Position numbers and translations under genes: made by a program. This document shows positions 20,362 to 61,126 of a stretch of 64,000 bases of DNA, in pieces (positions within the stretch are counted from its first letter, which is position 1; each line of letters opens with the position of its first letter). Origin of the DNA: Anadara kagoshimensis. Taxonomy: Eukaryota; Mollusca; Bivalvia; Arcoida; Arcidae. Under the pieces are notes generated by a model. That model searched no databases and was not told the DNA's origin. It saw nothing but the letters and a program-made list of their open reading frames with translations. Where the stretch lies: the NCBI GenBank assembly GCA_021292105.1, contig CM037861.1:26963110-27027109 (forward strand), written 5' to 3'.

Positions 20362-21963
20362 TTACATGTGGTATGTTGCTCTCACTGCCTCCCGGAAACT
20401 GTCTGCTGATGTTGCTTGCAGCACATCTGGTGGGAGTCTGTTCCAGTCAGCTATGGTTCTTGGTATGAAGCTGTTCTGGTAGGCATCAGTGGAGGTGCTG
20501 AGTCGTAGGAATCGTTGTTGATGGAATTGGCGAGTTTGTATGGTTAGTCTTGGTACATATGCTGGCATGTTTACTGCTGCCTCTCCATTTAAGGTCTTAA
20601 ACAAGAGAACGAGCCGGGCTATTCTTCTGCGTGTTTCGAGGTTTTGCCAACCAAGAGTCTGTAAGATGTTGGTCACAGTTCCTGGTTCCCGGGAGTAGCT
20701 GGATGTAACAAACTGGGCAGCTCTGCGCTGTACCATTTCAATTCCATGGATGTGTTTCTTTCTGTATGGATCCCAAGCCGACGACGCATACTCGAGATGT
20801 GGCCGTACCAGTGCTTTGTATGCCTGTTCTTTGACGTCTTTGGGGCATTTGTAGATGTTCCTGCGGAGAAAACCTAGGACTCTATTTGCCTTTGATGTAA
20901 TTTTGCTGATGTGTGGTTCCCATCCTAGGTCTTCAGAGATTTCCACGCCAAGATATGGATAATGTTGGACTGTATCCAGAATCTGTCCCATCATGTGGTA
21001 TTTATATTTGATGGGGTTTCTTTTCTTGGTGACCCGCAGTATGTAGCATTTGGCAGGATGGAATGTCATTTGCCACTTCTGTGCCCAGTCAACAAGGTCG
21101 TCGAGATCTTTCTGAAGGGTTTCAGCATCTTGTTCATCAGATATTGTTCTGAATAGTAAGGAATCATCTGCAAATAGGCGTAGTGAAGAAGTAATGTCGC
21201 TGCCCATATCATTGATGTATATCAGGAAGCACAGAGGGCCCAGAACAGTTCCTTGAGGCACTCCCGATCTGACTGGTTTGTTGGGACTTGATTCTCCATC
21301 TACACATACTCTTTGCTGTCGCTGCGTGAGCCATGAGTCTACCCATCTATGCGTATTTCCTCGAATTCCATAATGAGACATTTTATACAGGAGTCGGTGG
21401 TGTGGCACGGTGTCAAATGCCTTGGAAAAGTCTAGAACTAGCATATCTGTTTGTTCTTTTTTATCCAGTGATCTTGCTATTACTTCAATTGTGTTCACTA
21501 ACTGTGTCTCGCATGATCGACGCTTTCTAAAACCATGTTGGTGTTCGCTTAGGATCTTATGTGTTTCAAGGTGTTTCATCACATGGTGGTAAACGATATG
21601 TTCCATTGTTTTGCAGCATATGGATGTTAAAGACACAGGCCTGTAGTTAACTGCTTGACTCCTATCTCCTTGTTTATAGATGGCTGTAATGTTAGCCTGC
21701 CTCCAGTCCTCTGGTATTTCACTGGTGTTGTGTGACTGTTGGAATATTAGCCGCAGATAAGGTGATATTTCGTTACAAGCTATCTTCAGTATTCTAGTTG
21801 GTATCTGATCTGGTCCATTGGCTTTACTCGGATCCAGCTTCTCCAAGAGGCGACATACTCCTTCAGTTGTTATGTGTAGAGACTCGATGTCTGGTGTGTT
21901 GGTTGTTCCCAGGTTTGGCATGTGTGTTAAATCTTCGTCTGAAAACACTGTCATATTGTTCAT
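20362..21963 (-). CDS. LINE reverse transcriptase part of the broken pol frame
   Basis: Reverse transcriptase with all core blocks in order and the catalytic FADD in place of the commoner YADD. The first residues up to TVF are the out-of-frame side of the join; genuine sequence starts at SDEDLTHMP. The C-terminal part (RRAAQFVTSSYSR, LGWQNLETRR, FIPRTIADWNRLP) is the usual CR1/jockey-like tail. No stop interrupts 533 codons, so the insertion is fairly young. Confidence 0.9.
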   Translation of the reverse strand: MNNMTVFSDEDLTHMPNLGTTNTPDIESLHITTEGVCRLLEKLDPSKANGPDQIPTRILKIACNEISPYLRLIFQQSHNTSEIPEDWRQANITAIYKQGDRSQAVNYRPVSLTSICCKTMEHIVYHHVMKHLETHKILSEHQHGFRKRRSCETQLVNTIEVIARSLDKKEQTDMLVLDFSKAFDTVPHHRLLYKMSHYGIRGNTHRWVDSWLTQRQQRVCVDGESSPNKPVRSGVPQGTVLGPLCFLIYINDMGSDITSSLRLFADDSLLFRTISDEQDAETLQKDLDDLVDWAQKWQMTFHPAKCYILRVTKKRNPIKYKYHMMGQILDTVQHYPYLGVEISEDLGWEPHISKITSKANRVLGFLRRNIYKCPKDVKEQAYKALVRPHLEYASSAWDPYRKKHIHGIEMVQRRAAQFVTSSYSREPGTVTNILQTLGWQNLETRRRIARLVLLFKTLNGEAAVNMPAYVPRLTIQTRQFHQQRFLRLSTSTDAYQNSFIPRTIADWNRLPPDVLQATSADSFREAVRATYHM

Positions 21964-23344
21964 TTAAGATTTCGGCCTTTTCCTTCCCACTTATTGCTTG
22001 TCCTCCGGTCTTGGTTTGTAGTGGGGATATTCCCATGTTGTCTTTCTTCCTGGACTTGATGTATTTCCAGAATTTTTTGCCTAGGGCTTGTTGCTTGTTG
22101 GTCTCTTCATCTTGATTAAGAATTTGCCTGACATATTCATCATGTGCTGTGTTCATTTCTTTCTTCACTTGATCCCTCAATTCTTTGAATTTCTTCCAGT
22201 TTTTAGGGGTGTTATACTTTTGTGCGGCATTGTATCTGCGTTGTCTCCGTCTTATTAATCTCTTTATTCTGGTGTTAATCCAAGGGACATGTTGTTTGCT
22301 TCCTACGGTTTTGGTTGGTATGAATTTGTCTACTGCTGTTTGTATTGTGTTTTTAAATACAGTCCACATTTCTTCAACTGTCATTCTTTTTGTATTGGCA
22401 ATATGGAGTTCTTCTTTGAACTTATTATCTAGGTGTTTCCGGAGTCCATCCATGTCTCCTTTTTTATAGAGTAGTACTTTTCTTGGTGTTTTCTTTAATG
22501 TTTTGGCTTTGAGGTTGATATTTGCGATGACTATCGAGTGGTCGCTCATTCCAGGATGGACCTCATGATTTACAATCAGGTCTGGGTTTGTTGTTAGTAG
22601 TATGTCTAGGATATTTTTGCCTCTTGTCGGTTCTGCTATTATTTGACTAAAATTGTTGTTACTTGTGATGTCTATTAATTTATTGTTGATTGTATATCCA
22701 TACTGTGGGTTTGGTCTTACTGAGTTTGTTGACCAGTCAATGTCGGGTAGGTTGAAATCTCCTCCAAGGATGACATTTGGAAGACGTCCATCCATTGTGG
22801 TCAGTAATTGGTAAATTGACCCCTCTAATTCTTCCATCATGTCTACACTGCTGCTTGGTTGTCGGTAGAACGATCCTATAAGCAGTGGTTGGCTACCACG
22901 GATATTGATTTGGCACCACACTACTTCACATTTGTTTTTGGGGCTGACTTCTGTGCTAATGTAGTCATCTTTTACTGCAATAAATACACCACCTTGGCCA
23001 TATGCCCGGTCTTTCCTATGAGGTGGACTATAAAATGATGGGAAGATTTCACTGCTGGCAACAGTACCATCTAGATGTGACTCGCAGCCAAGTATGATAT
23101 CGGGATCGTGTGTTTCTATTAAGTCATGAAAATCTACTTTCTTTTTGTCACTTAGTAGACTCCTGCAGTTTACAATCATTACTTTAATGGTGTTTCTTGA
23201 GTTTTGTTTACTGTCTGTTTTATCATGCAAATCGGCTGTCAGATTGTCTGACACATCATCAGTTGAAGTATCTATCTCTGATAAGGCTTCAAAGGAGTAC
23301 ATACTAGTGCATGTACATGTAATTCTTTTTCGTTTTATGACCAA
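21863..23344 (-). CDS. LINE endonuclease part of the broken pol frame
   Basis: Exonuclease-endonuclease-phosphatase fold with the catalytic GDFN and SDH motifs intact. After the endonuclease comes a basic linker (TRIKRLIRRRQRRYN) typical of LINE connector regions. The last about 27 codons (FRRRFNTHAK to the stop) are out-of-frame translation past the frameshift and are not genuine protein. Confidence 0.85.
   Translation of the reverse strand: MVIKRKRITCTCTSMYSFEALSEIDTSTDDVSDNLTADLHDKTDSKQNSRNTIKVMIVNCRSLLSDKKKVDFHDLIETHDPDIILGCESHLDGTVASSEIFPSFYSPPHRKDRAYGQGGVFIAVKDDYISTEVSPKNKCEVVWCQINIRGSQPLLIGSFYRQPSSSVDMMEELEGSIYQLLTTMDGRLPNVILGGDFNLPDIDWSTNSVRPNPQYGYTINNKLIDITSNNNFSQIIAEPTRGKNILDILLTTNPDLIVNHEVHPGMSDHSIVIANINLKAKTLKKTPRKVLLYKKGDMDGLRKHLDNKFKEELHIANTKRMTVEEMWTVFKNTIQTAVDKFIPTKTVGSKQHVPWINTRIKRLIRRRQRRYNAAQKYNTPKNWKKFKELRDQVKKEMNTAHDEYVRQILNQDEETNKQQALGKKFWKYIKSRKKDNMGISPLQTKTGGQAISGKEKAEILNEQYDSVFRRRFNTHAKPGNNQHTRHRVSTHNN
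21941..21946 (-). pseudogene. One-base frameshift in the LINE pol frame
   Basis: On the minus strand the upstream frame reads EQYDSVF and the downstream frame reads TVFSDEDL across the same bases, at a run of four T. One missing T explains the break. Confidence 0.75.
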
Positions 23345-28296: not shown

Positions 28297-31200
28297 ATGA
28301 GTGTTGAGCTTGAAAGATTGGGGTAAGAATACAGTAACATACAGTATTACATGTACCTTGTTTTATCACCATCAATGATCATTTGTTACACATATTTTGT
28401 AATTACATGTTAAGCCATATAAAATTAATTCCTAGATTTTCATCTCTGCCTGCCCCACTTTTTTTTTGCCCGCCCCAGAATTTTTTATTTGTTTATTTTT
28501 GTTATGTTCTTTAATGAAGTTTTTTTTCAGGCAGTTTCTGTTGTCATTACTGTTATTTCTTTTGAATCTGAAAATAAAAAATAATGAAAAATAAAATTTG
28601 CGCCCCTGGTCCCAATCATGAAAAAAATTTGATGAAAATCTAGGAATTAATTTTATATGGCCTTATCTGTATATAAAAGAATCATGGCAGAAGATATGGG
28701 AATAATAACATAGCAGAAATGGACTTTGGGACTGTGGCAATAGATAATATAGTAAAGGTTATAGTATAAGGGCATTGTAATAATGATTTACTATATTGTC
28801 AGCAAATTTTCACATCTATTAATTTTCTTGCAAATTTTAAGAAACTGTTGTCTTTATAATGGTAAATGAAATACCAGTTGTTATTTCACCGGCGCCAAGT
28901 ACTTGTACAAAAGATATCATGCTGTATTTCACAAAAAAAAAAAAAAAAAAAAAAAAAACCAGCTACCAATATTGCCCAAGTGAGCAGTACAGATGATGAC
29001 ACCCTAATGATTTACCTACATGTATATTTATTCTATTACAGCTGGTTTCACCCAAACACAGATCGTCACACAGCAGAAAGTTTGTTACTACAAAATGGTG
29101 TAGATGGCACATACTTACTGAGACAGAGTTCTAAATCTGGAGAATATGCACTCTCTGTGAGGTAAGATTAATACCAGTTACAAGGTCTGTTCTTGTTTAA
29201 ACATGTCTTTAGACTGCACACACAAACAAATTTCTTACTATTGGCCCTGCATAAATGATCAAGACGTCTTGTCAACAGTGCACTAATCAAACACAAAACT
29301 GTCTTTTTAACAATATAAATATCTATAATTTTATATTATTTGAAATAAACACATAGAATGTGTTCAAGTCTGACTTTATTCAGATCTTATAGATAATGTA
29401 ATGAACTCAACCAGAAAGTCAAAATATGTCTTTGGAAACTTCATTGGTGTATAACCATATTGTACGATCAGATGTTCAAAATTTTGTTTTGTAATGGAAG
29501 GTCCAGGACCTTTTGCCTTTTTCGGCAGGTCCCACAATAAGGTTTGAAATACCAATTTAATCATTGAAAGGTCCATGTGCCATTATGATATTATACAGAA
29601 AAAAGTAGAATTATTCTGAAAAAAATGCAGGTCCATTGAACTTTTACAGTTTAAATATCAAGGGTTCCAATTTAAAATCAAAAGGTCCCAGATCTTCCAA
29701 TTGGACCTGGGGAATTTGAAACCCTGTATGATATGATATACATACGTTTGTATGTTTTTATTTCTGGCAGCCAAAATCACCATTGACTACTAATATCTGA
29801 GATATCTTTTCAGAAACTAACCAATTTTAGCAAACTATAAAAAGTAGTACTAGTATATATTCACAAATTTTAGAAATTAGGTCTACTGGTATTTTTAAAT
29901 TGTGGAAACCTAGTTAGCAATAAAGATGATTTCACTTAATTTATGTTTTACTTTTCGCCATGTTTCAGGTGTGATAAATCTGTAAAACATTTCAACATTA
30001 CGTGGACAGGAAGTGTATTTAAATTTGGACATGGAGAATTCCAGTCAATTGATGAACTTATCCAACATTTTGCAAATAAACCACTTATTGGTGCAGAGTC
30101 AGGTAAATAATCTACATATGGTTCATAGTGCTAATGGTCATATGGTAGGTAATGAATTTATTTCTTGATCATTCATAGGCTTTGCTTATAAATCAGCTGC
30201 TAAGCTATGCTGTGATTAGCTGTGGCATCTGGATGATTACATCTTTTAGATTCTTTTCTTTCTGTTTGGCACCTGAGTTTGTAATCACAGTTTGTAACAG
30301 TGGAAAGATGTACTTGTATTAATTTATTATATCCCCGCAATCTAGTTTGAAGGGGGTATATAGAAATCACCATGTCTGTCTGTCCGTGTAAAATCATGTC
30401 CGGGCCATATCTGATCAATATTTTGGATGACTGTCATAAAACTTCACATGAATAATCTTCAGTGTCCCAAGGTGTGTCATGACCTTGAACCAAGGTCATA
30501 TCAGAAAGGTCAAGATTGTGGGAAAACTCATATTAAATGTATGGGGTGGGGGGTACTTGTCTTAAGAGACAGTTCTAGTTAAAATGACTATGATCAATGA
30601 TTCTTGTGATAAATCACCATAATGGTGTACCATCATATGATAAATTGCTGTCAGATATACTTTGTTAATGAAAGTACTGAAATCATACACAGGTTAATTT
30701 TCTGAAATTGAACAGGTGGAAGAAATTGACTTCAATTTTGCAGGAGTAAATTCTAATTAAAATATGATTCAGGACCAAAACGGTCATCAACATTTGAAAT
30801 AACAAAGTTCAAATGATAGGATTTTTTGGAAAATTAAGAATTATAATACTGGTACATTATATTTGGCACCAGATGGGAATTTGAGTAACGTAAGGGATTT
30901 AAAAAATTGAGGATCCATTTAGCAAAGTTAGATTGTATCTGCACCTTAATGCATGTTAATAAATGGTAAATTATATTATTTCAGGACAATTAACACTGTT
31001 AAATTTCCCCTATCCACGAGCCATTGATGAACCAAATATGTATGACACTATACGAGTTCATGCTGAATTCAGTACTGCTGATGACTTTTCAAGGGGACCG
31101 GAGTTCTCTGTAAGTATAATATATACTGGATATGACACTATATGAGTCTATGATGAATTCAGTACTGCTGATTTCATTTCAAGAGGTCCAGAGTTTTCTG

Positions 31201-49958: not shown

Positions 49959-51280
49959 TCAACCTCGCAGGACTGCAATAGCCTCCTTCATTTGACAATC
50001 TTTTAATGCTCTTTCTAATACTGATGGACTTGCTAGATCTCCTAGACGTTCCTTCCACAAAGCCAGTAACCGATTCACCTAAAAGAATAGTAGTTATAAT
50101 ATGAACATTTACGTCATTTGTGTAATTATCAACAAAAATGTTGATATCCTTACTACCCTTACTACAGTAACTCAGCTGTTGCAATTTACTTAGATAGAGA
50201 AAGGTCAAAGGTTCAATCTCTGTTAATTAGGTTCAAACTAGGTATAACTGATAGTCTTGGGTCCTTTAAAATGGGGATTAAGATTAGCAGGGGTCCAGTA
50301 GCCCATTTCTGCTAAAATTCAGTCTGGGTCCCTAAATGTTTACACATTTTAGCTATCTATTACTGTTAAAACTTCTTTTCTGAAATGAGATGGGCCCCCA
50401 ACTCAAAATAGTTAAGTGTCATCCCTTTAAAACATGCCCTGTGTCATGTTATGCCATGGAGTATACCGGTAATGATGTTTGTCTATTTGTTGTCCATTCT
50501 ACAACAGACTTTGTTTCCATCTCAATTCTTTCATAAAATGATGAAGAACACAAATAAGGGAAAATAATATAACTTAAATAATTCTGACTTGGATGTGAAT
50601 TTCACCTCAATTAAACAATTGATTAGTGGTTATTGTCTGTTATGGTTCAGTTACTTCAGTAATGGTCAATATGATAACTGTGCTTGCAATATTTTAGCCA
50701 TCTACAATTAAATAAAGCTAAGTGAATGCTATCTTGATATATATCTATCATGATCCATGTATTGAGGTACTTGTATGTATCATATCATAGTCATGTTACC
50801 ATTTGCCACACCCATTCAATCAAAACACAACTTTATGTTGTTTGTAATTCTGTGCCAAATTCTTGATTTCTTGGTACTAAATTTAAACCCGAAAAATGAA
50901 AAACAGATCATTTATTTTATGGCCCCAATACTCTAATACACGATGTATATTTACTTGTTTCAGACTGTCTCCGGGGTTATCTTCTTTGATTTCCTCGACA
51001 TCTTCTGTTGTAAAGCCCAGTTTATTGGCCAGCTTAACCCAATCTTTTTTCATTATTTTTGGTGCCATCTCTTTGAGTTTTTTGTTTGACACAGGTTGTT
51101 GTGTTGTAGGCCGGCTGGCTCCAGGCGTTGGCCCTCTGCTAGAAAACTAGAATATAACATAAAATTCAAAAACAATAAGCTACAGTGAAACTGTAAAGTG
51201 GCAGATCTACAAGTAAAGTTCATTTTAAGGAGTATCTTTAGAATATCTCAATACAGACTTTCTGAAACTCTCTCTCTCTT

Positions 51281-51333
<53 letters not shown>

Positions 51334-54300
51334 ATAATTCATTTGTATTATAAATCAGTCAATAATACAAAAGTTTTAAATTAGTTTATGACACAGAAAA
51401 CTTAACAAACTGCAAACACTTGAGAAATTAACCAATCAGCAATGATCAAATGAGACTACAGCATAATGTTAAATATTAATCAAGCAAAAAAAAAAACATT
51501 ACAGTAGAACTTCGATAACTCAAAGTGCACGGGACTTAGATGATGACTTCGAGTTATCGCGGTGTTCGAGTTTTCGAAGTCGAAGAATGACGTCACAATG
51601 TAACTTTCATTTCTTTGAGAGAAATGTTGGATGGTGTAAAACTGTTTACTGATACACTGGTGTAATATGTACCGGTATTACATAAAATAATAAATGAATT
51701 AAAATCAAATTATTAATTATGTTTTACTAAGGACTGATGGCGACAACAAACGCATACATGAAATACACAAAATGTGTATCACCAATACATGAATGTAATG
51801 CATTCAAAGAACTGAATCAGATAAACATATCTATGTACATTGTATGTTATAATTTACAAAACAAGACGCACATTTTATAGAAATTATAAAACTAGTGTGT
51901 CTACCACGTGTTAGTAATTAAAACCCAGCTTAAATCACCTGAAAATTTGTTGTCGCCAGCGGCCCAAAACTCGGCTTCTACTGAGAGGGTACACGGTTAC
52001 ACTTCATCGCCCATTACGGCACAGAGTACTAATCCTTTAATTGATACTTATTAATACAGTAGCAAAACCTTTGATCTGTGCCACTTCTCCAATCATTAAT
52101 CGGATTGTATGGAAGTATTATAGCTAATTGTCGATTAATTACCGTGTTTTCACTGAAACGTTCTATAAGTCACCCATTGTTAAAAATATTTCGAGTTTTA
52201 GAAGGTTGTTTTTCCTACAATTTTTAATTTTCGAGTTACAGGAGTTTGAGTTATCGAAGTTGTATTTATATAGTTTATATAGAAAACCGGTCGGGACAAA
52301 ATTATTACTTCGAGTTATCCGTGGTATTCGAGATATCGAAGTTCGAGTTATCGAAGTTCTACTGTATATCTTACAAACATGTTCAACTCAAAATGTCAGA
52401 GGTGTATTACATAGATTTAAATGAGGACATAAGACTGCCTGTTGGACTTTAACTATGCTGGCCTGAATTTTGGTGGGATACTTGATTAAGCAGTCTCTGA
52501 AATTAAATGCTAAATCACTAAAATTAGTATACCTTTCACATAAAGTCACACAGTATGTTAAGTATAAAATCCCATTAAGACAGTCTTGCTAGTAAGCAAG
52601 TGGAGAGTAGTTTAAGTCAAGAACTTATGATTCTAGGGTTATGGGTTTTACCCAAAGCTTGGCCTTGTAGTATATCTTTGAACAGGAATATATATTTTTT
52701 TTCAATCTTGTTGACCCTGCTTAAAATGAAAACTTGGGGAGGCTAGTTGTTTACAATGGGGTGCACTTTCAACTTACATGTGTATATATTTTATTTTAGC
52801 CTAGTACTCAAACACTACATATTATTATCATTTATTTTTATTATTGATGAAACTGTTATTATTGTTTTATTACTATCTAAGACTGCAAAATAAAATCATA
52901 AGTCAACAACATATATACAAAAAACACAACAATATTTTATCTATACAAAAGCACAATAATTTCTATGTCTACAATGTTTTACAGGGTATTATTTGATTTC
53001 ACTTCAAATACACAACATAAACCACCAGGGTACTGGTAACCATGACTACCTTGTCTCCTTGTCCTGGAACTGTTAATGTCTCTTTAGGAGTAAAAAACTA
53101 AAAGAAAATGTTGTTGTAATCATAAGCAGGAGTAAAACAACAACACATGAATACCTAACTACATGGACATGTGTGTAATATAAACTGAAATATGAAAAGT
53201 AATATACTGGTAAACAAGTTGTATCTGAAATAGGATACCATTTCAAAAGTGTCCCCAGAAAGAACCCCAACTGGAAATCCTTATTTTCCCAAACAAGTGT
53301 ATGATCAAAATATGAATAGCAATGACATATCTACTACACCCAAAGATTGTTCATGTGAAGTTTCATAAAAATCTGTTAAATAGTTTTTGAAAAGAAAGAC
53401 AGACAAAATGTTGGTGAAAGAAATTGAATAAACACTATATGTCCAAAAAAAATTCAGACATCTTTATATACATACAAGTACCTATTTTAAAACTGGATGT
53501 TGATTTTATAACTGTATCCTATAAGCGACTGTAAAAGCATATTATTTGTGTCCATGATTAAGATAATAGAACCAAATGCTGTTGATGGTGTAACTTTTTA
53601 AAACAATTTGCTTCTTGCAACAAACAGAAATGTACCAGAAAATCAAAAGAGGTAAAGGAGAAAGTTTCCAGATCAGTGGTTTCAAAATTATGTTTTGTAA
53701 TGGAAGGACCTTCTTCCTTATTTGTTGGCAGGTCTCACATAATTTTTTTAAGTTCCAATACCAACAGTGAATGATCCATGCTGAAATATGTTATCATATA
53801 GAAAAGTAGTATTATCCTGGTAAAAATGGCAAGTCCATCTGACTTTCGCAATTTAAACATCAAGGGTAAAATCAATAGTTCCTGGAACTCAGACCTAGGG
53901 ATTTTGAACCCCTGAAGATTTACAGTTATCAAGCATAAACAGTTTTGGTATAAAACAATTTCTAGATTTCCCAAGAAGACAAATACTGATATTACTACCA
54001 TACCTCTGGTAGGTTCTGGTGAAGTCTTTCCTTCATGTAGTTTGGAAGTATCTGGAAATCGATGACTTGTTCTAGAGTTTCTGATGGTACGTTGAACATA
54101 ACACGGGCAAATGATTCTTCATCTATATAACCTGTTAATAAACAAACAACAATAAAAATCAAATAGTTTTACAATAATGTACAAATGTGGATTATTCTAA
54201 CTCCATTTCCTTCCCCCAACATTTCTGATAACTTTTCTCATTTTCATTCACTAAGTTCTAATATAAGAAAAGTCCCATTCAGAACACCTTATTTAAACCT

Positions 54301-57300
54301 ACAATCACATGAACATGTACGCACAGAAGGTCTAACAGTGAGTGATTAATTATATGAGCAACTCTAATAAAACCAGAGTCTGATGGTAATTATTTTAGTT
54401 AACATGATGAATTGCAGTTCTAGTCTATCAAACATTATTTTCAGAGCCTTATTACCTGTATACGAATATTTGAATAATGATAGTTTGTTCACATTAGATG
54501 CAGAGGCTACTTGGTAGGAACGCACTGGGGATTAAACCAAGGGCCTCCAACACTATAGGAGAGTCCTATACATTTCTTACCTTTATTATCTGGATCCATC
54601 ATGTCAAAAAATGTCTGTGAAACTCTGTCTAAATCCTGGAATTGAAGTGCAAAATTAAATAATGATTGGTTATCTTGGTTTTGAAAATAATAGTATTATC
54701 CCTATGGCTAAAATGGATATATTGTTCAAAAAGGGAAACAATTCTTTATATTTTCATCAATAAAGAACTCTCTCTTCTTATATCTTAAGCTTTGTACTTT
54801 GGCAGTTTCAACAAACCTCTGTATCCATAAATCATTCTGAATCCAGAGACCATGCCAACTAACATCTTGAAAGTTTCAATGGTAACATAGGTAAAATGCC
54901 GCTTCTTATTAAATTCATGAAACATGATGGTTTAGTATGAAAATACTACCTAATTACTTTATTAACCGACTTCTTATTTATACATGTAAATGTTAAATAA
55001 ATTTTTGATCAAGCAAAAAGTATTCTTTGTAAAAAAAGTCAACATAGTGAAAAAAGAGACAAACATGAATAAGAACAAGAGACCCATGGGCCTTAACGCT
55101 CACCTGTGACCTTGACCTTTGATCCCATGAGCTTCATTCAAATGTCAAAATGATAATTAGGCCAATATTCTAACATACATGCCTATACAAAAAGTTAATA
55201 GTTTTCAAGATAATTAATCATTTAGGTATTCTTTAGCATCTGTGACCTTGACCTTCGAACCCATGACCTTCATTCATATATCAAAATGATCATTATGATA
55301 ATAGTAACTATTCTAATATACATGCCTATATAAAAAGTTAATAGTTTTTAAGATAATTAACCATTAAGTTTTCTTTCGCATCTGTGACCTTGACCTTTGA
55401 ATCCATGACCTTCATTCATATATCAAAATGATCATTAGGATAATACCTAAATATTTTAATATACATGCCTATATAATAAGTTTATAGTTTTTGAGATAAA
55501 TAATCATTTCAGGACTTGTTTACATCTGTGACCTTGACCTTTGAACTCATGACCTTTATTTATATATCAAAATGACCATTGGGCCATTACCTACAATATT
55601 CTAATATACATGCCTATACAAAAAGTTCATAGTTTTGCAGATAATTAACTATTTTGGTAAACTTGTACATCTGTGACCTTGACCTTTGAACCCATGACCT
55701 TCATTCATATATCAAAATGATCGTTAGGATAATACCTAAAATATTCTTATATACATGCCTATACAAAAAGTTTATAGTTTTTGAGATAAATAATCATTTC
55801 AGTACTTTTTGACATCTGTGACCTTGACCTTTGAACTCATGACCTTTATTCATATATCAAAATTACCCTTGGGCCATTACCTACAATATTCTTATATACA
55901 TGCCTATACAAAAAGTCTATAGTTTTTGAGATAAATAATCATTTCAATACTTGTTTACATCTGTGACCTTGACCTTTGCACTCATGACCTTTATTCATGT
56001 ATCAAAATGACCATTTAGCTATTACCTACAATATTCTAATATACATGCCTATACAAAAAGTTCATAGTTTTGCAGATAATTAACTATTTTGGTAAACTTG
56101 TACATCTGTGACCTTGACCTTTGAACCCATGACCTTAATCAATATATCAAAATGATCGTCATGTCAATACCTACAATTAACAAAAAATACTACGTCATTA
56201 TCACCAGAAATGTTTAAAAAATAGCATTTTTTATCAAAGGTCAAAAACTGGGACATGACCTTGACCTTTGACATCAATCGGAAGAAAATTGCAAGACAAG
56301 ATCAACAGTGAAAACTTCATACAATTATCTTCAGCCATTATGAAGTTATAACAATAAATGTCTCATTTTAAAAATTACATAATTTACGCAAAAAACGCGT
56401 AACCTATTTTTCGTCCAATTTTCATGAAAAACATAATTTAAATGTATCTAGGTATCCTGAATCCAAAAATCTAGGCAAAATTTGCCTGCACCTTTTGGTT
56501 CTAGAGAAGAAGATTTTTTTGTCTTTTGGCTATTTATAGTAACGGCAGCCATATTGTTGGGCGTGGTCAAACTCCGAACACAATTTTGAAAGCCTGTTAC
56601 CCAGGCATAATAATCACCAAGTTTCCTCAAATTTAGTTCAGTAGTTTTGAAGGAGAAGATTAAAATGTAAAGTTTACGCACGACGCACGACACACGACGG
56701 ACGACAAACGACGGACGACGGACGGTGATAGATAGCAATAGCTCATCTGAGCCTTTCAGCTCAGGTGAGCTAAAAACCTACTGTATGTTTAGCCTATTTC
56801 AGAGAAAACAAGAACCCAAACATCTAAAAAAATTTCAATGGGGTGGATACAAATCAGTAAATCATTTACTTGCATTAGCTGAGTCATTGCTAAAAATCCC
56901 GATTTCCAACTAATCCATGCAGTGTAACTCCTTTAATACACCAAGACGTATTTTGGATGGGTGTTTACAATGGTAAAAATTTTGACAAAATAGCTGTGTC
57001 TTTTGTGTGATGTAATGATGATGGAAGAATTTATCATTTACGTACATGTAAGTGCATAAGGGGTACAATGAAGGGTAGCTCAAATGTCCAGTTGAGTTTA
57101 AAAGTTTCAATTTACGTCAAGTTTGAAAATGAAGAAAGGTACTGGGGTACTTCCCTTAATTAGTTTATTTAATCATTTTAGGCCATCCCAGTTATGCCAA
57201 AATCATTTCGTTCTTTAACTGCACCAACCTACATAAATAGTCAACTCAACCGTCACTTAACATAAGATACCCGGCCATTTTGTAAAAACATTTATTATTG

Positions 57301-60300
57301 TAAACATTTATTCAAGTTATATTTTGTTGTACAAAATGTTAGATAAAGCAGAGATAGAACCCAAAACTGGAATTATTAGTAATGACTTCACACATGTACT
57401 GTAAGTAAATGAATTACTGATTTGTATCCGCCCAGTTTAAAATCTATAAGATAATTGGCTTCTCGCTTTTCTTTTAAATAGGCTAAACAAACAGTAGTCT
57501 GAATTTAAATAATCATTTATACAATGTCTAATAGAACCTGTTTTTATCAAGCATCTTCTAGACTAGGATTTATATATATTACAGACCTTTCTGTCTTCAG
57601 GGTTAATATATATTCTCTCTAAAATCTTAACAAACATGGCTCTAGGTACAGGCTGGGCATTGTTCAACAACCGATGGATAGCTACAAATGGCAGATTTAT
57701 AAAATAAGACTAAATTTCAAATAGAATTTAAACTGTAACAGTATTTTGTCCGAAGAAAATTCATAAATTGTCCGAAATAATATTTGTGTACATACAATTT
57801 GGTTCAAACCAATGAAGTGATGGCAAAACTATATTAATTCAACAACAGTACTGTTCATATCTCGTACTACAAAGTAATACTGGTATACAACACAATTTCT
57901 CAAAATACAATCTAGTACCAAACCATTGAAAGTGGCATATCATGGTTCCTGTTTTGAACCATTCTGATGACAAAACACTTACAGTCAAACCTGCCTGTAA
58001 AGGGCACTTAAAGGAACCAGTAAAAAGTGGCCTTTATGGTCAAGTGGCCTTTATATACAGGTTATTATAACAGGAATAAAGAGCAATTGGGATGAAATTT
58101 TACTGGCCTTTAAAGGCAGGTGGCCCTTATATAGAGGTGGCCTTTTTAGGCAGGTTTAACAGCACCAGTAATTTTTGTTTCAGATATGTTAATAAAAATT
58201 ATTACAACTTTTATCAATATAATTTTTAACTTATCAAACGATTATACATTTACCTCTGAGCTTTTTGTCCATGTCTGCTGTTTCTACCCATTTTAAAGTA
58301 CGAATGTAATTTTCAAAAGTAATTTTCTTCTCTCTTCCATATGTTGCCAACATACGTTTCATTATCTAAAATAAAGAAATACCAGCTTTAACTACACATC
58401 TGGCTTTCCAAACACATTCACAGGCAATCAGAAACAGCAAAATCATTGGTCATATAATAAAGGGTTTTATCTTGGTACTGGTCATTACTTGTTAGGGCAG
58501 GGTTTAATAGTGTAAAAGTTTTCTGAATGGTTTTGAAAAAACTTACATATTAACATATTATTGGCAATGACAGCAAGAGTGTGCTGTGATTAAAAATCAA
58601 ATGATGTACTGGTAATCTAGATTTGCAGAAAAGCATTGTTTAAAACTTGCTATTTTCAAAGCATTAGTTTTACACATATGGGGACAGAATACAATTTTAC
58701 TTCTTTCTTTTAGTAATACATTTATTTAAAAATTTCTTTTAGTAATACATGTATTTTTAAATCTTTTTTAGTATTTTTAAATTTCTTTTAGTTATACATG
58801 TATTTCTTTATTTCTTTTAGTAATACATGTATTTTTAAATTTCTTTGTAAAAATTGACTATAAAAATGTTTTGTTTCTACAAAAAAAAAAAAAAAAAAAA
58901 AAAAAAGAAAGAAAAACACCCAAAACAAATCAAAATGCTCTGTGCATGCTATTTCAAATGCCACTTTGAAGAAAATATAACATGCACAAAACAATTTTGT
59001 TTATTTCTGTATTGACAGAAAATGTTTAACAGTCACTTATTTGTGGTTGGTAACATGAGTTTATTACACTGTGGACACAGACGTATCACTGATACATAAC
59101 TATATTTCATATAATTAGATTAAAATTATTGAAAAAATAGTTGAAAACAAAATATACCGGTAATCAGAACTCTTACAAACTCTAAATTTATATTTAGATA
59201 TTCTTCACAATATGTCATATGATAATAAAGTGAAATTATCAAGAAGGGTCTCACTGAAGCAAATTTGGGGCTGAAATTGGGCCCCATTCCAAATGCAATA
59301 AAGTATGTTTTTCCCCAATGGATAATGGTAATATTCACAATTTATTTAAACATTGTGTTTACAAAAATGGTCTGTTTTCCCAATCAATTTCTAAACCTTC
59401 ATCTCTTACAGACACAGCTAGAAAATACTGTAAATAAATTCAGAGGCATGAAAGATGTAGAAATAGAACTCTTATTTGCATTCAGTTATATTTTATGACC
59501 AGTAAAAGTCTGAAAGTATTATTTTGCCTCTTTTTTAATTTTCCCAAAATACGTCAAAATGACACTTATTTTCCCAATTCCAAGGGCCCTGGCTCCATTC
59601 TCAAAAAGGAGTTATAGACTCTGAGAAGGGTCTGAGAGACAGTCAGCCTATATCTGAAAGACGTTAAGATACAGGTAACAGACAACAAGTACCCCTCATA
59701 ACTTCAAATAATCTTGTTGATTTTACTTACATTTCTAGCAAATGCATCACTGTGAATTCTGAGTTGAGCTATGTTAGACTCTGTAACTTCACCATCTGTA
59801 TTACATTTCATTTGACGAAATCTGGCCCAAAGACGTTCAACTTCAGCTATACTCACTGTAAAAGGAATTTTTACATGTTAAATTAACATTACCAATATAG
59901 TGGTCTTCTCTAAACCAAGAGAAACACGAACCTTTTCCGATAACCCCTTTCAAATTTTTTAGTGGAAGATAAAAAAAAATTAATTTGATTAATCAATACA
60001 TGGTACGTAATGTAAACATGGTAAAGGGACATAAAAAAAATTCAAAAATAAATAAAAAACTTTGGTATAAATGCTCAAATAGCCAAACTGAGACAAATAA
60101 AGAATGAATATTTGTTCAGAGTAAGATATTTCTGTCATATTACCAGCGATAATTGGTAAAATATTTGTATATGTTGTTACGACAAATAAATAGTTGTGAA
60201 ATGTTCTGATGATAAGTGCTTTGATAGCCTGGCCAGATATTGAAATATATAAAAATATGCATTCTTATGAAAAGTCTCTGAAAATGTAAAAGCTAATTCT

Positions 60301-60684
60301 CCCACAATTACAACTTTAAATTTACTAGTATTATTTTTTCATATTTTTATTCACTAACATGGGATTAATTGTTGATACACTAAATTTTGTTTCTAATAAT
60401 GTCTCCCGAATGTTCTTTTATTCACTAACACTAACATGGGATTAATTTTTGATAGACTAAATTTTGTTTCTGATAATAATGTCTCCGAGTTGGTGAAAAT
60501 GTGCCAGATTGTTTTGTCTAATGTCCTGGGTTTCCATTTTTGAGTTATGGCATGTATGATTTAGCCAATACTTACATTCTGTTGCTACAGCATGTAGAGT
60601 GATCCAGTTAGGTTGAGAGGGGTGGGTGTGTTTTGATACTGCTTCTCTTTCAGGCACTATAAACTCACTAGTGTAATTACCCAT
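49959..60684 (-). CDS. N-myristoylated EF-hand / Death-domain protein, nine coding exons, 327 aa
   Basis: Exons in transcript order: 60684-60576, 59855-59731, 58365-58254, 57681-57587, 54635-54581, 54131-54004, 53097-53050, 51146-50955, 50078-49959 (TGA 49961-49959). GT-AG and phase are consistent throughout. The start MGNYTSEF fits the N-myristoylation rule (Gly2, Ser6), as in calcineurin B. Residues about 38-205 look like a calcineurin-B/CHP-type EF-hand module: a VERLWARF helix with degenerate loop CNTDGEVTE, the ITFENYIRTL and KKLRAIHRLL helices, then a near-canonical loop DPDNKGYIDEES at 161-172 whose twelfth position is Ser instead of Glu. A Pro/Ser/Thr-rich linker (about 209-245) follows. 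Residues about 245-327 form a Death domain: KKDWVKLANKLGFTTEDVEE, the acidic turn DNPGDS, LLALWKERLG and ERALKDCQMKEAIAVLRG to the stop. Inferred role: a membrane-tethered, calcium-responsive Death adaptor. I recognise no named orthologue. An acceptor at 60711-60710 implies at least one upstream 5' UTR exon. Confidence 0.88.
51282..51327 (+). repeat. (CA)n microsatellite
   Basis: 23 CA units, 136 bp before the Death-domain exon acceptor in transcript direction, within the preceding intron. Confidence 0.95.
51502..52364. mobile_element. 863-bp pogo-like nonautonomous element in the EF-hand/Death gene
   Basis: Perfect 20-bp inverted ends CAGTAGAACTTCGATAACTC, with flanking TA at 51500-51501 and 52365-52366. 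Subterminal CGAGTTATCG-type repeats occur. It lies in the intron between the exons ending 53050 and starting 51146. Confidence 0.88.
53685..53920 (+). repeat. Family E repeat in the EF-hand/Death gene
   Basis: Same order of motifs as the 29465 copy (TTTTGTAATGGAAGGACC, GGCAGGTCTCACA, ACATCAAGGGT, GATTTTGAACCCC). Confidence 0.68.
55071..56772. mobile_element. 1.7 kb composite element with a ~145-bp tandem array, in an EF-hand/Death gene intron
   Basis: The ends are AACAAGAGACCCATGGGCC...GCTCACCTG on the left and CAGGTGAGC on the right, preceded by an ACGACGGACGACG tract. This format is common among bivalve interspersed repeats; another left end is at 1536-1575. It fills part of the intron between exons 57587 and 54635. 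Confidence 0.7.
55105..56270 (+). repeat. ~145-bp tandem repeat, eight copies plus a degenerate ninth
   Basis: Copies start with TGTGACCTTGACCTTTGA at 55105, 55241, 55383, 55527, 55672, 55817, 55962 and 56107, with a looser copy near 56254. Inner landmarks are ATATATCAAAATGA and ATATACATGCCTATA. Spacing settles at 145 bp in the later copies. Confidence 0.88.
57982..58162. mobile_element. ~180-bp MITE, CAGTCAAACCTG type, in an EF-hand/Death gene intron
   Basis: Starts CAGTCAAACCTGCCTGTAAA and ends GGCAGGTTTAACAG, with inner GTGGCCTTTAT and AGGTGGCCCTTATA blocks shared with the 44611 copy. The right end is imperfect. Confidence 0.65.
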
Positions 60685-61126
60685 TTTTGTTATACATAAA
60701 TGTTCAAACCTAAAAGATAAATAGTCAAATAAATAAAGATATGAAGAAATAAATAATGATTACTTAGTTGATCATCTGCTCTAAAACTCAAATGAGACAA
60801 AAACCCCAAGGGGTCTGCGCAGTCACCACTACTTTAAGACACTTATATGTACATCAAGGCCAAACACCTTCACAAAAGTGGAAAGAACTGTATACCCTTA
60901 TGCTGTGCATATTAATACATTGGCATATTTGGTAGAGCTCCAGGATTACAGACGTTTCGTCCCATAGGACTTTTCGTCCCATGCCATTTCGTACCATATT
61001 CAGGACTTTTCGTCCCATATTTGTAAGACGTTTCGTACCATAGGACTTTTCGTCCCAAGACATTTCGTAACATTGTTATATTATCTAAAAGAGATAAATA
61101 AATATTATTTATTCATTTGTTTTTTG

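Follow-up and report, generated by a model that had tools for sequence, protein, structure and literature searches.

A predicted Anadara kagoshimensis protein that joins a CHP/calcineurin-B-like EF-hand module to a Death domain

A stretch of 64,000 nucleotides from Anadara kagoshimensis (GenBank assembly GCA_021292105.1, contig CM037861.1, positions 26,963,110 to 27,027,109), in the following called the window, contains on its minus strand, at positions 49959-60684, a gene of nine exons for a predicted protein of 327 residues. The N-terminal part of this protein is most likely a derivative of the CHP/calcineurin B family, the C-terminal part is by sequence a Death domain, and a single protein very probably contains both. 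The pairing of these domains appears to be real and under strong constraint, and it is possibly undescribed. The reading that we prefer, at a probability of roughly one half, is that of a Death adaptor which has a myristoyl anchor, is probably independent of calcium, and may use a target-myristoyl switch like that of CHP3, the membrane binding and the Death assembly being predictions from the sequence.

The exons are separated by GT..AG introns of consistent phases and, when spliced from the ATG at 60682-60684 to the stop codon that ends at 49959, give exactly 327 residues, which agrees with the nine phase-consistent exons encoding MGNYTS... that a preliminary description of this DNA had proposed. 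In a Pfam scan of the product with E up to 10, eight families were found, the EF-hand and Death matches of which are treated below, and the other rows of which are DUF3723 (0.012) and Death_TNFRSF11B (0.097).

A second copy and purifying selection

The genome assembly (1.115 Gb, 36 contigs) was searched with the 327-residue protein, and matches were taken at E up to 10. The 45 matches comprise the nine exons of the window, nine exons of a second copy, and 27 others that all concern the Death part (query residue 242 onwards; best match 5.5e-6 with 34% identity); for the EF-hand region, the search gave no relative beyond the second copy. A scan of viral contigs resulted in two pattern stretches and in no relative.

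The second copy lies 462 kb away on the same contig (C5:27475417-27483973) and has all nine exons in conserved order and strand, with all nine exon lengths retained, no indel, and GT/AG borders at all junctions; a single donor has GTGAGT instead of GTAAGT. The coding sequences differ at 14 of 984 nt (1.4%), and 13 of these differences are synonymous, the single replacement being K112Q. This corresponds to a nonsynonymous rate (dN) of 0.0013, a synonymous rate (dS) of 0.066, and a dN/dS of about 0.02, and if 0.76 of neutral changes were replacements, the probability of at most one in 14 would be about 1e-7. In the introns, 420 of 6823 aligned bases (6.2%) are different between the two copies, and the alignment has a further 3669 gap columns. 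When the gene and its flanks are compared with the region of the copy (C5:27465100-27494800), the blocks that cover the gene show an identity of 92-98%, and there are large insertions and deletions. Purifying selection acts over the whole reading frame. It is also seen in exons 1-6 alone, where one of eight differences is nonsynonymous (P 3e-4), but exons 8-9 contain a single difference, too few for a separate dN/dS test of the Death part. The copies may stem from a recent duplication or represent two haplotypes that were both retained in the assembly, and the selection argument stands in either case. Among the Death matches in the genome, at least ten pairs have equal scores on one contig, which again points to recent duplications or to retained haplotypes.

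That the gene model could be a product of chance or a pseudogene might be concluded from the EF-hand scores, which are weak and stay under the Pfam cut-offs, but with the low dN/dS, nine exons without any indel, and preserved splice junctions, this explanation has hardly any probability and was rejected.

As to the introns, intron 4 contains at 55163-56177 a 145-bp tandem repeat of 7.0 copies, and TGTGACCTTGACCTT is found eight times in this intron. The stretch around the repeat (55079-56771) has no block over 150 bp that matches the second copy, and the repeat therefore looks like an insertion in one copy.

One protein or two

The EF-hand part and the Death part are joined by exon 7 (53050-53097, minus strand), a mini-exon of 48 nt that encodes the linker FFTPKETLTVPGQGDK and has phase 0 on both sides. 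This exon has neither a Met codon nor a stop codon in the linking frame, and the five nucleotides that differ from the copy (5/48) are all synonymous in that frame (P 8e-4); in the other frames, the residue changes would be 4 and 5 (the two sense frames) and 5, 1 and 4 (the three antisense frames). If the constraint is real, exon 7 cannot stand at either end of the coding sequence and must be flanked by further coding exons on both sides. The synonymous-only differences of exon 7, together with the junctions that are kept in the copy, support the single protein of EF-hand module, linker, and Death domain that had been assumed in the preliminary description.

Three observations speak against a single product. 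Intron 7 contains six AATAAA or ATTAAA hexamers, a read-through of exon 6 into its intron meets a stop after two codons (VW), and beyond the stop codon of the gene itself, no such hexamer occurs in the window for 1.3 kb; a short EF-only alternative transcript or product is therefore possible. The hexamers and the read-through, as well as an internal Met 251 in front of the Death domain, would also suit two separate products, with exons 1-6 or 1-7 encoding an EF-hand protein and exons 8-9 a product that has the Death domain alone, but exon 7 seems to be under coding constraint in the frame that links the halves, despite having no Met and no stop, intron 6 has no AATAAA or ATTAAA, and both copies preserve GT/AG at every junction, which makes two products quite improbable.

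The Death domain

Residues 225-288, encoded by exon 8 (50955-51146, minus strand), comprise a Pro/Ser/Thr-rich linker and the beginning of the Death domain, with 0 of 192 nt differing in the copy, and exon 9 (49959-50078, minus strand) encodes the remainder (residues 289-327) and the stop codon, with one synonymous difference in 120 nt. The Pfam model Death (PF00531) matches residues 250-325 at 4.4e-13, with 49.6 bits versus a cut-off of 22.6, and covers profile positions 6-82 of 86, in line with the complete C-terminal Death domain that had been described. Of the two domain types that had been assigned without a profile search, the Death domain is thereby established, whereas EF-hand matches are present but fail the Pfam cut-offs. 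The Death homology is solid, and the predicted protein belongs by its sequence to the Death-domain superfamily.

A search of the PDB with the Death domain gave ankyrin-1 (6.6e-7, and 3.4e-6 in another search), RIPK1 (8.5e-5), and FADD (4.7e-4), and similarity to the Death domain of CRADD was detectable as well. These ranks are noisy, because designed TIM barrels appear in the same list at 2.1e-5 and 6.5e-5. Neither a DED nor a CARD nor a TIR domain was found in the Pfam scan of the protein up to E = 10, and the predicted protein thus does not have the layout of a FADD/CRADD/MyD88-type adaptor, in which Death is combined with DED, CARD, or TIR. Elsewhere in the genome, Death-domain exons form dense clusters at C11:4760708-4824649 and C19:47771105-48431466, which are presumably expanded gene families.

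Origin of the EF-hand module

The module is encoded by five exons of the minus strand. Exon 2 (59731-59855; 2/125 nt differ in the copy) contains an EF1-like unit with the helix SIAEVERLWARF and the degenerate loop KCNTDGEVTESN at residues 53-64, exon 3 (58254-58365; 1/112 nt) an EF2-like unit (residues 79-116) and exon 4 (57587-57681; 1/95 nt) an EF3-like unit (residues 116-147), both with a degenerate and shortened loop, exon 5 (54581-54635; 0/55 nt) the first half of EF4 (DLDRVSQTFFDMMDPDNK), and exon 6 (54004-54131; 2/128 nt) the second half of EF4 and a tail up to residue 208.

A hidden Markov model (HMM) that was built from four calcineurin B sequences gave 16.8 bits for the predicted protein, 13.9 bits of which come from one collinear stretch, residues 41-177. 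None of 2000 shuffled sequences reached this score (1447 were reported at all, with a maximum of 7.6), nor did any of 1060 six-frame chunks (maximum 5.4), and when the HMM was compared with 456 open reading frames of the window, exon 2 came out on top with 8.5 bits.

The second line of evidence is the gene structure. The CHP1 gene of this genome is found at C2:23936500-23946400, and its identity follows from the first three exons, which match p22/CHP1 at 5.9e-32, CHP2 at 1.8e-16, and calcineurin B at 1.1e-10. In all six MAFFT alignments, the window gene and CHP1 share two introns in position and phase, at codons 37/23 (window gene/CHP1; 5' of exon 2) and 116/113 (3' of exon 3), both in phase 1. 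A third intron (147/147, 3' of exon 4), which has phase 0 in both genes, is one column off in five of the six alignments, and in the sixth, the near-matching pair is 208/174 instead of 147/147. Introns without a partner are those at 78, 166, and 208 in the window gene and at 47, 74, and 174 in CHP1. The simulated chance of such sharing is 0.001 for the two exact introns and 6e-5 with the third near one, and these figures are rough, as five introns were placed in each gene at uniform random positions and real introns are not uniformly distributed. Exon 4 of CHP1 (L046:4880-5175) has a one-base frame discrepancy in the loop, which is either an assembly error or a variant exon, and the phase of the fourth intron of CHP1 was for this reason read from exon 5.

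Several results weigh against the assignment to this particular family. Five Pfam EF-hand models match around residues 154-178, all of them below their curated cut-offs, the best being EF-hand_7 (2.7e-4; 21.7 bits, cut-off 30) and EF-hand_1 (3.9e-4; 20.2 bits, cut-off 25.4). Single-sequence matches in the PDB are weak, with calcineurin B at 0.074 over residues 39-181 and a calcium-dependent protein kinase in the top row at 0.014, and hhalign of the single sequence gave a probability of 42%. With calmodulin added to the calcineurin B profile, the HMM score rose to 24.3 bits (8.9 for the best shuffle) and the hhalign probability to 70%, and because of this rise the scores indicate an EF-hand relative more than calcineurin B specifically. 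The CHP assignment thus leans on the gene structure, and the shared introns were established with CHP1 as the only EF-hand gene compared. Among the genome matches listed, in which other EF-hand exons prevailed, no calcineurin B gene in the strict sense was recognised.

Calmodulin as the nearest source is disfavoured, as an HMM from the calmodulin sequence alone gave 6.8 bits, which equals the score of the reversed query and was reached by 2 of 2000 shuffles, but the step from 16.8 to 24.3 bits upon its addition to the calcineurin B profile still gives calmodulin some weight as a source.

Collinear homology over four EF-hands and a shared gene structure, as in the CHP/calcineurin B family, are both found in the predicted protein, and a descent of the module from this family is strongly supported by them. 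The calcineurin-B/CHP-like region of the preliminary description is thus supported, with a calcineurin B HMM score above all shuffles and introns in common with CHP1.

The calcium loops

In an alignment with calcineurin B, the residues at loop positions 1 and 12 are K53 and N64 in EF1, G88 and N97 in EF2, N122 and M131 in EF3, and D161 and S172 in EF4, and the loops of EF2 and EF3 are each two residues short, with position 1 of EF3 shifting with the alignment. Position 12 of an EF-hand normally is the bidentate ligand, and an acidic residue (Glu or Asp) is absent from this position in all four loops. The EF4 loop (residues 161-172, DPDNKGYIDEES), which is split over exons 5-6, retains D161, D163, G166, I168, and D169 but has K165 at position 5 and S172 at position 12. 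The 'near-canonical' calcium loop that had been seen here was therefore an overstatement, as two ligand positions are Lys and Ser. By sequence, none of the predicted loops is a canonical calcium-binding EF-hand with an acidic residue at position 1 and Glu or Asp at position 12, and with two loops being shortened in addition, calcium sensing by the protein is unlikely. A direct coupling of calcium to Death-fold assembly, as had been suggested, finds no support in these loops.

EF4 may still bind calcium weakly, or bind magnesium. A calcium-sensing Death adaptor, in which calcium at EF4 would switch membrane binding or Death assembly, could be advocated with the retained EF4 residues, with the fact that EF4 is the EF-hand detected by Pfam, and with CHP3, which according to the accessible part of PMC10368425 functions with one active EF-hand. 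In the window gene, however, all four loops are degenerate, including EF1 and EF2, position 5 of EF4 is Lys and position 12 Ser, and the loop of the partner EF3 is shortened with Met at position 12; calcium sensing was rejected as the leading mechanism on the basis of these residues and is an improbable explanation.

The N-terminus and a possible mechanism

Exon 1 (60576-60684, minus strand; 2/109 nt differ in the copy) encodes the myristoylation-type N-terminus MGNYTS... (residues 1-37), with codon 37 being split in phase 1. MGNYTSE matches a PROSITE-type myristoylation pattern, so that for the predicted start codon the N-myristoylation start of the preliminary description fits, and we infer that Gly2 is N-myristoylated. 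Upstream of the ATG, a probable 5' untranslated region of 25 nt (60685-60709, minus strand), which is identical in both copies, runs to the acceptor TTTATCTTTTAG. What argues against a lipid anchor is that the frame of exon 1 is open as far as this acceptor, wherefore the true start codon could be further upstream, and that visual inspection shows neither a cysteine nor a cluster of basic residues close to Gly2, which would leave the lipid anchor weak on its own.

For CHP3, a target-myristoyl switch has been described in which binding of a target peptide exposes the myristoyl group independently of calcium (PMC10368425, accessible part). A calcium-independent switch of this type would fit the window gene, because its CHP-derived module has the MGNYTS start and dead loops. 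The EF-hand scaffold, having lost calcium binding, would present a fixed cleft in which a helical partner docks. Binding of this partner may release the myristoyl group in a CHP3-like manner and thus place the protein on the membrane only when engaged, and the Death domain would then recruit further Death-domain proteins to the membrane. On this reading, the product would act as a Death adaptor or scaffold that is docked to the membrane, and not as a calcium switch. One may tentatively go further and see in it an undescribed adaptor class, a calcium-stripped calcineurin-B-family module with a Death domain, in which a partner and not calcium exposes the lipid anchor and so delivers a Death-fold nucleator to the membrane, but this wider proposal is somewhat less probable than not.

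The main rival to a membrane-docked Death adaptor is an ankyrin-like scaffold role, in which the protein would be a CHP-type partner subunit at the membrane skeleton, with the EF-hand module binding a transporter tail and the ankyrin-like Death domain having a scaffold role instead of one in death or immune signalling. The introns that are shared with CHP1, the known interaction of CHPs with NHE exchangers (PMC10368425, accessible part), and ankyrin-1 as the top solved-structure match of the Death domain in both searches are in line with such a role, but RIPK1 and FADD follow closely behind ankyrin-1 and leave the class of the Death domain ambiguous. We consider this alternative unlikely, albeit less so than a calcium sensor.

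Relation to known proteins

The predicted protein shares with CHP1-3 an MG start and the order of its four EF-hand units, and its gene has the two exact introns and the near-exact one in common with CHP1 of this genome. It differs from CHP1 by the degeneration of all four loops, by having a linker and a Death domain added, and by an identity of 29-33 of 154-158 aligned residues, depending on the alignment setting. With calcineurin subunit B, it shares the collinear HMM match, but Glu is retained at position 12 of the loops in the calcineurin B sequences of the alignment. Calcineurin subunit B is not known to have a Death domain.

Death-fold adaptors usually consist of a Death domain and DED, CARD, TIR, or kinase parts, and FADD and CRADD are adaptor-sized with a C-terminal Death domain. 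The predicted protein resembles the latter two in this layout and in a detectable similarity of the Death domain, but has an N-terminal EF-hand module in place of the DED, CARD, or TIR of the FADD, CRADD, and MyD88 types. Ankyrin is the best PDB match of the Death domain, but the ankyrin repeats, ZU5, and UPA of ankyrins are absent from the Pfam scan of the protein.

Calcium regulation and a Death domain do occur together in other systems, namely in one protein in the case of DAPk (PMC3726526, accessible part) and in one complex when calmodulin binds FADD or TRADD (PMC4313936, accessible part). DAPk, however, is a kinase that is regulated by a separate calmodulin, and in both cases EF-hand and Death are on different proteins, whereas here they are on one chain. 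An EF-hand in a molluscan protein of the innate-immune type is known from the Aplysia ROCO/TIR protein LOC101845043, which has been called a putative Toll-like receptor and, unlike the window gene, has an architecture of TIR, ROC, COR, and leucine-rich repeats (PMC9334734, accessible part). The legend of Fig. 6 of the same paper lists EF-hand and Death both among the drawn domains of Aplysia TIR/COR proteins, not necessarily within one protein, and the main text of PMC2575513 does not mention EF-hands.

In a collection of 5.39 million open full texts, no report of the pairing was found among the titles and the openings of abstracts of the papers listed for EF-hand or calcineurin B together with death domain, or for death-domain proteins of bivalves, which is in agreement with the preliminary view of the gene as the strongest candidate for an undescribed system in the window; subscription papers, UniProt, and InterPro lay outside this scope, and an unnamed database entry with this EF-hand and Death layout may well exist. 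If the proposed function is true, a calcineurin-B-family module in an adaptor would be a new route that brings a Death domain to the membrane, and the fusion would be a counterpart in cis of the calmodulin binding to FADD and TRADD (PMC4313936, accessible part). As four calcium sites are apparently lost and the module is strongly constrained, it would also be a natural experiment on the functions that the CHP/calcineurin-B scaffold has in the absence of calcium.

Other features of the window

On the plus strand, at 28866-29162, the window contains an exon that encodes the N-terminal half of an SH2 domain (profile positions 1-41 of 77; Pfam 1.7e-11), which we take to be reminiscent of DAPP1/Bam32. 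On the minus strand, at 20362-23344, there is an element of the long interspersed nuclear element type with two overlapping open reading frames, one of which encodes a reverse transcriptase (PF00078, 1.4e-34), whereas the upstream one looks endonuclease-like by eye.

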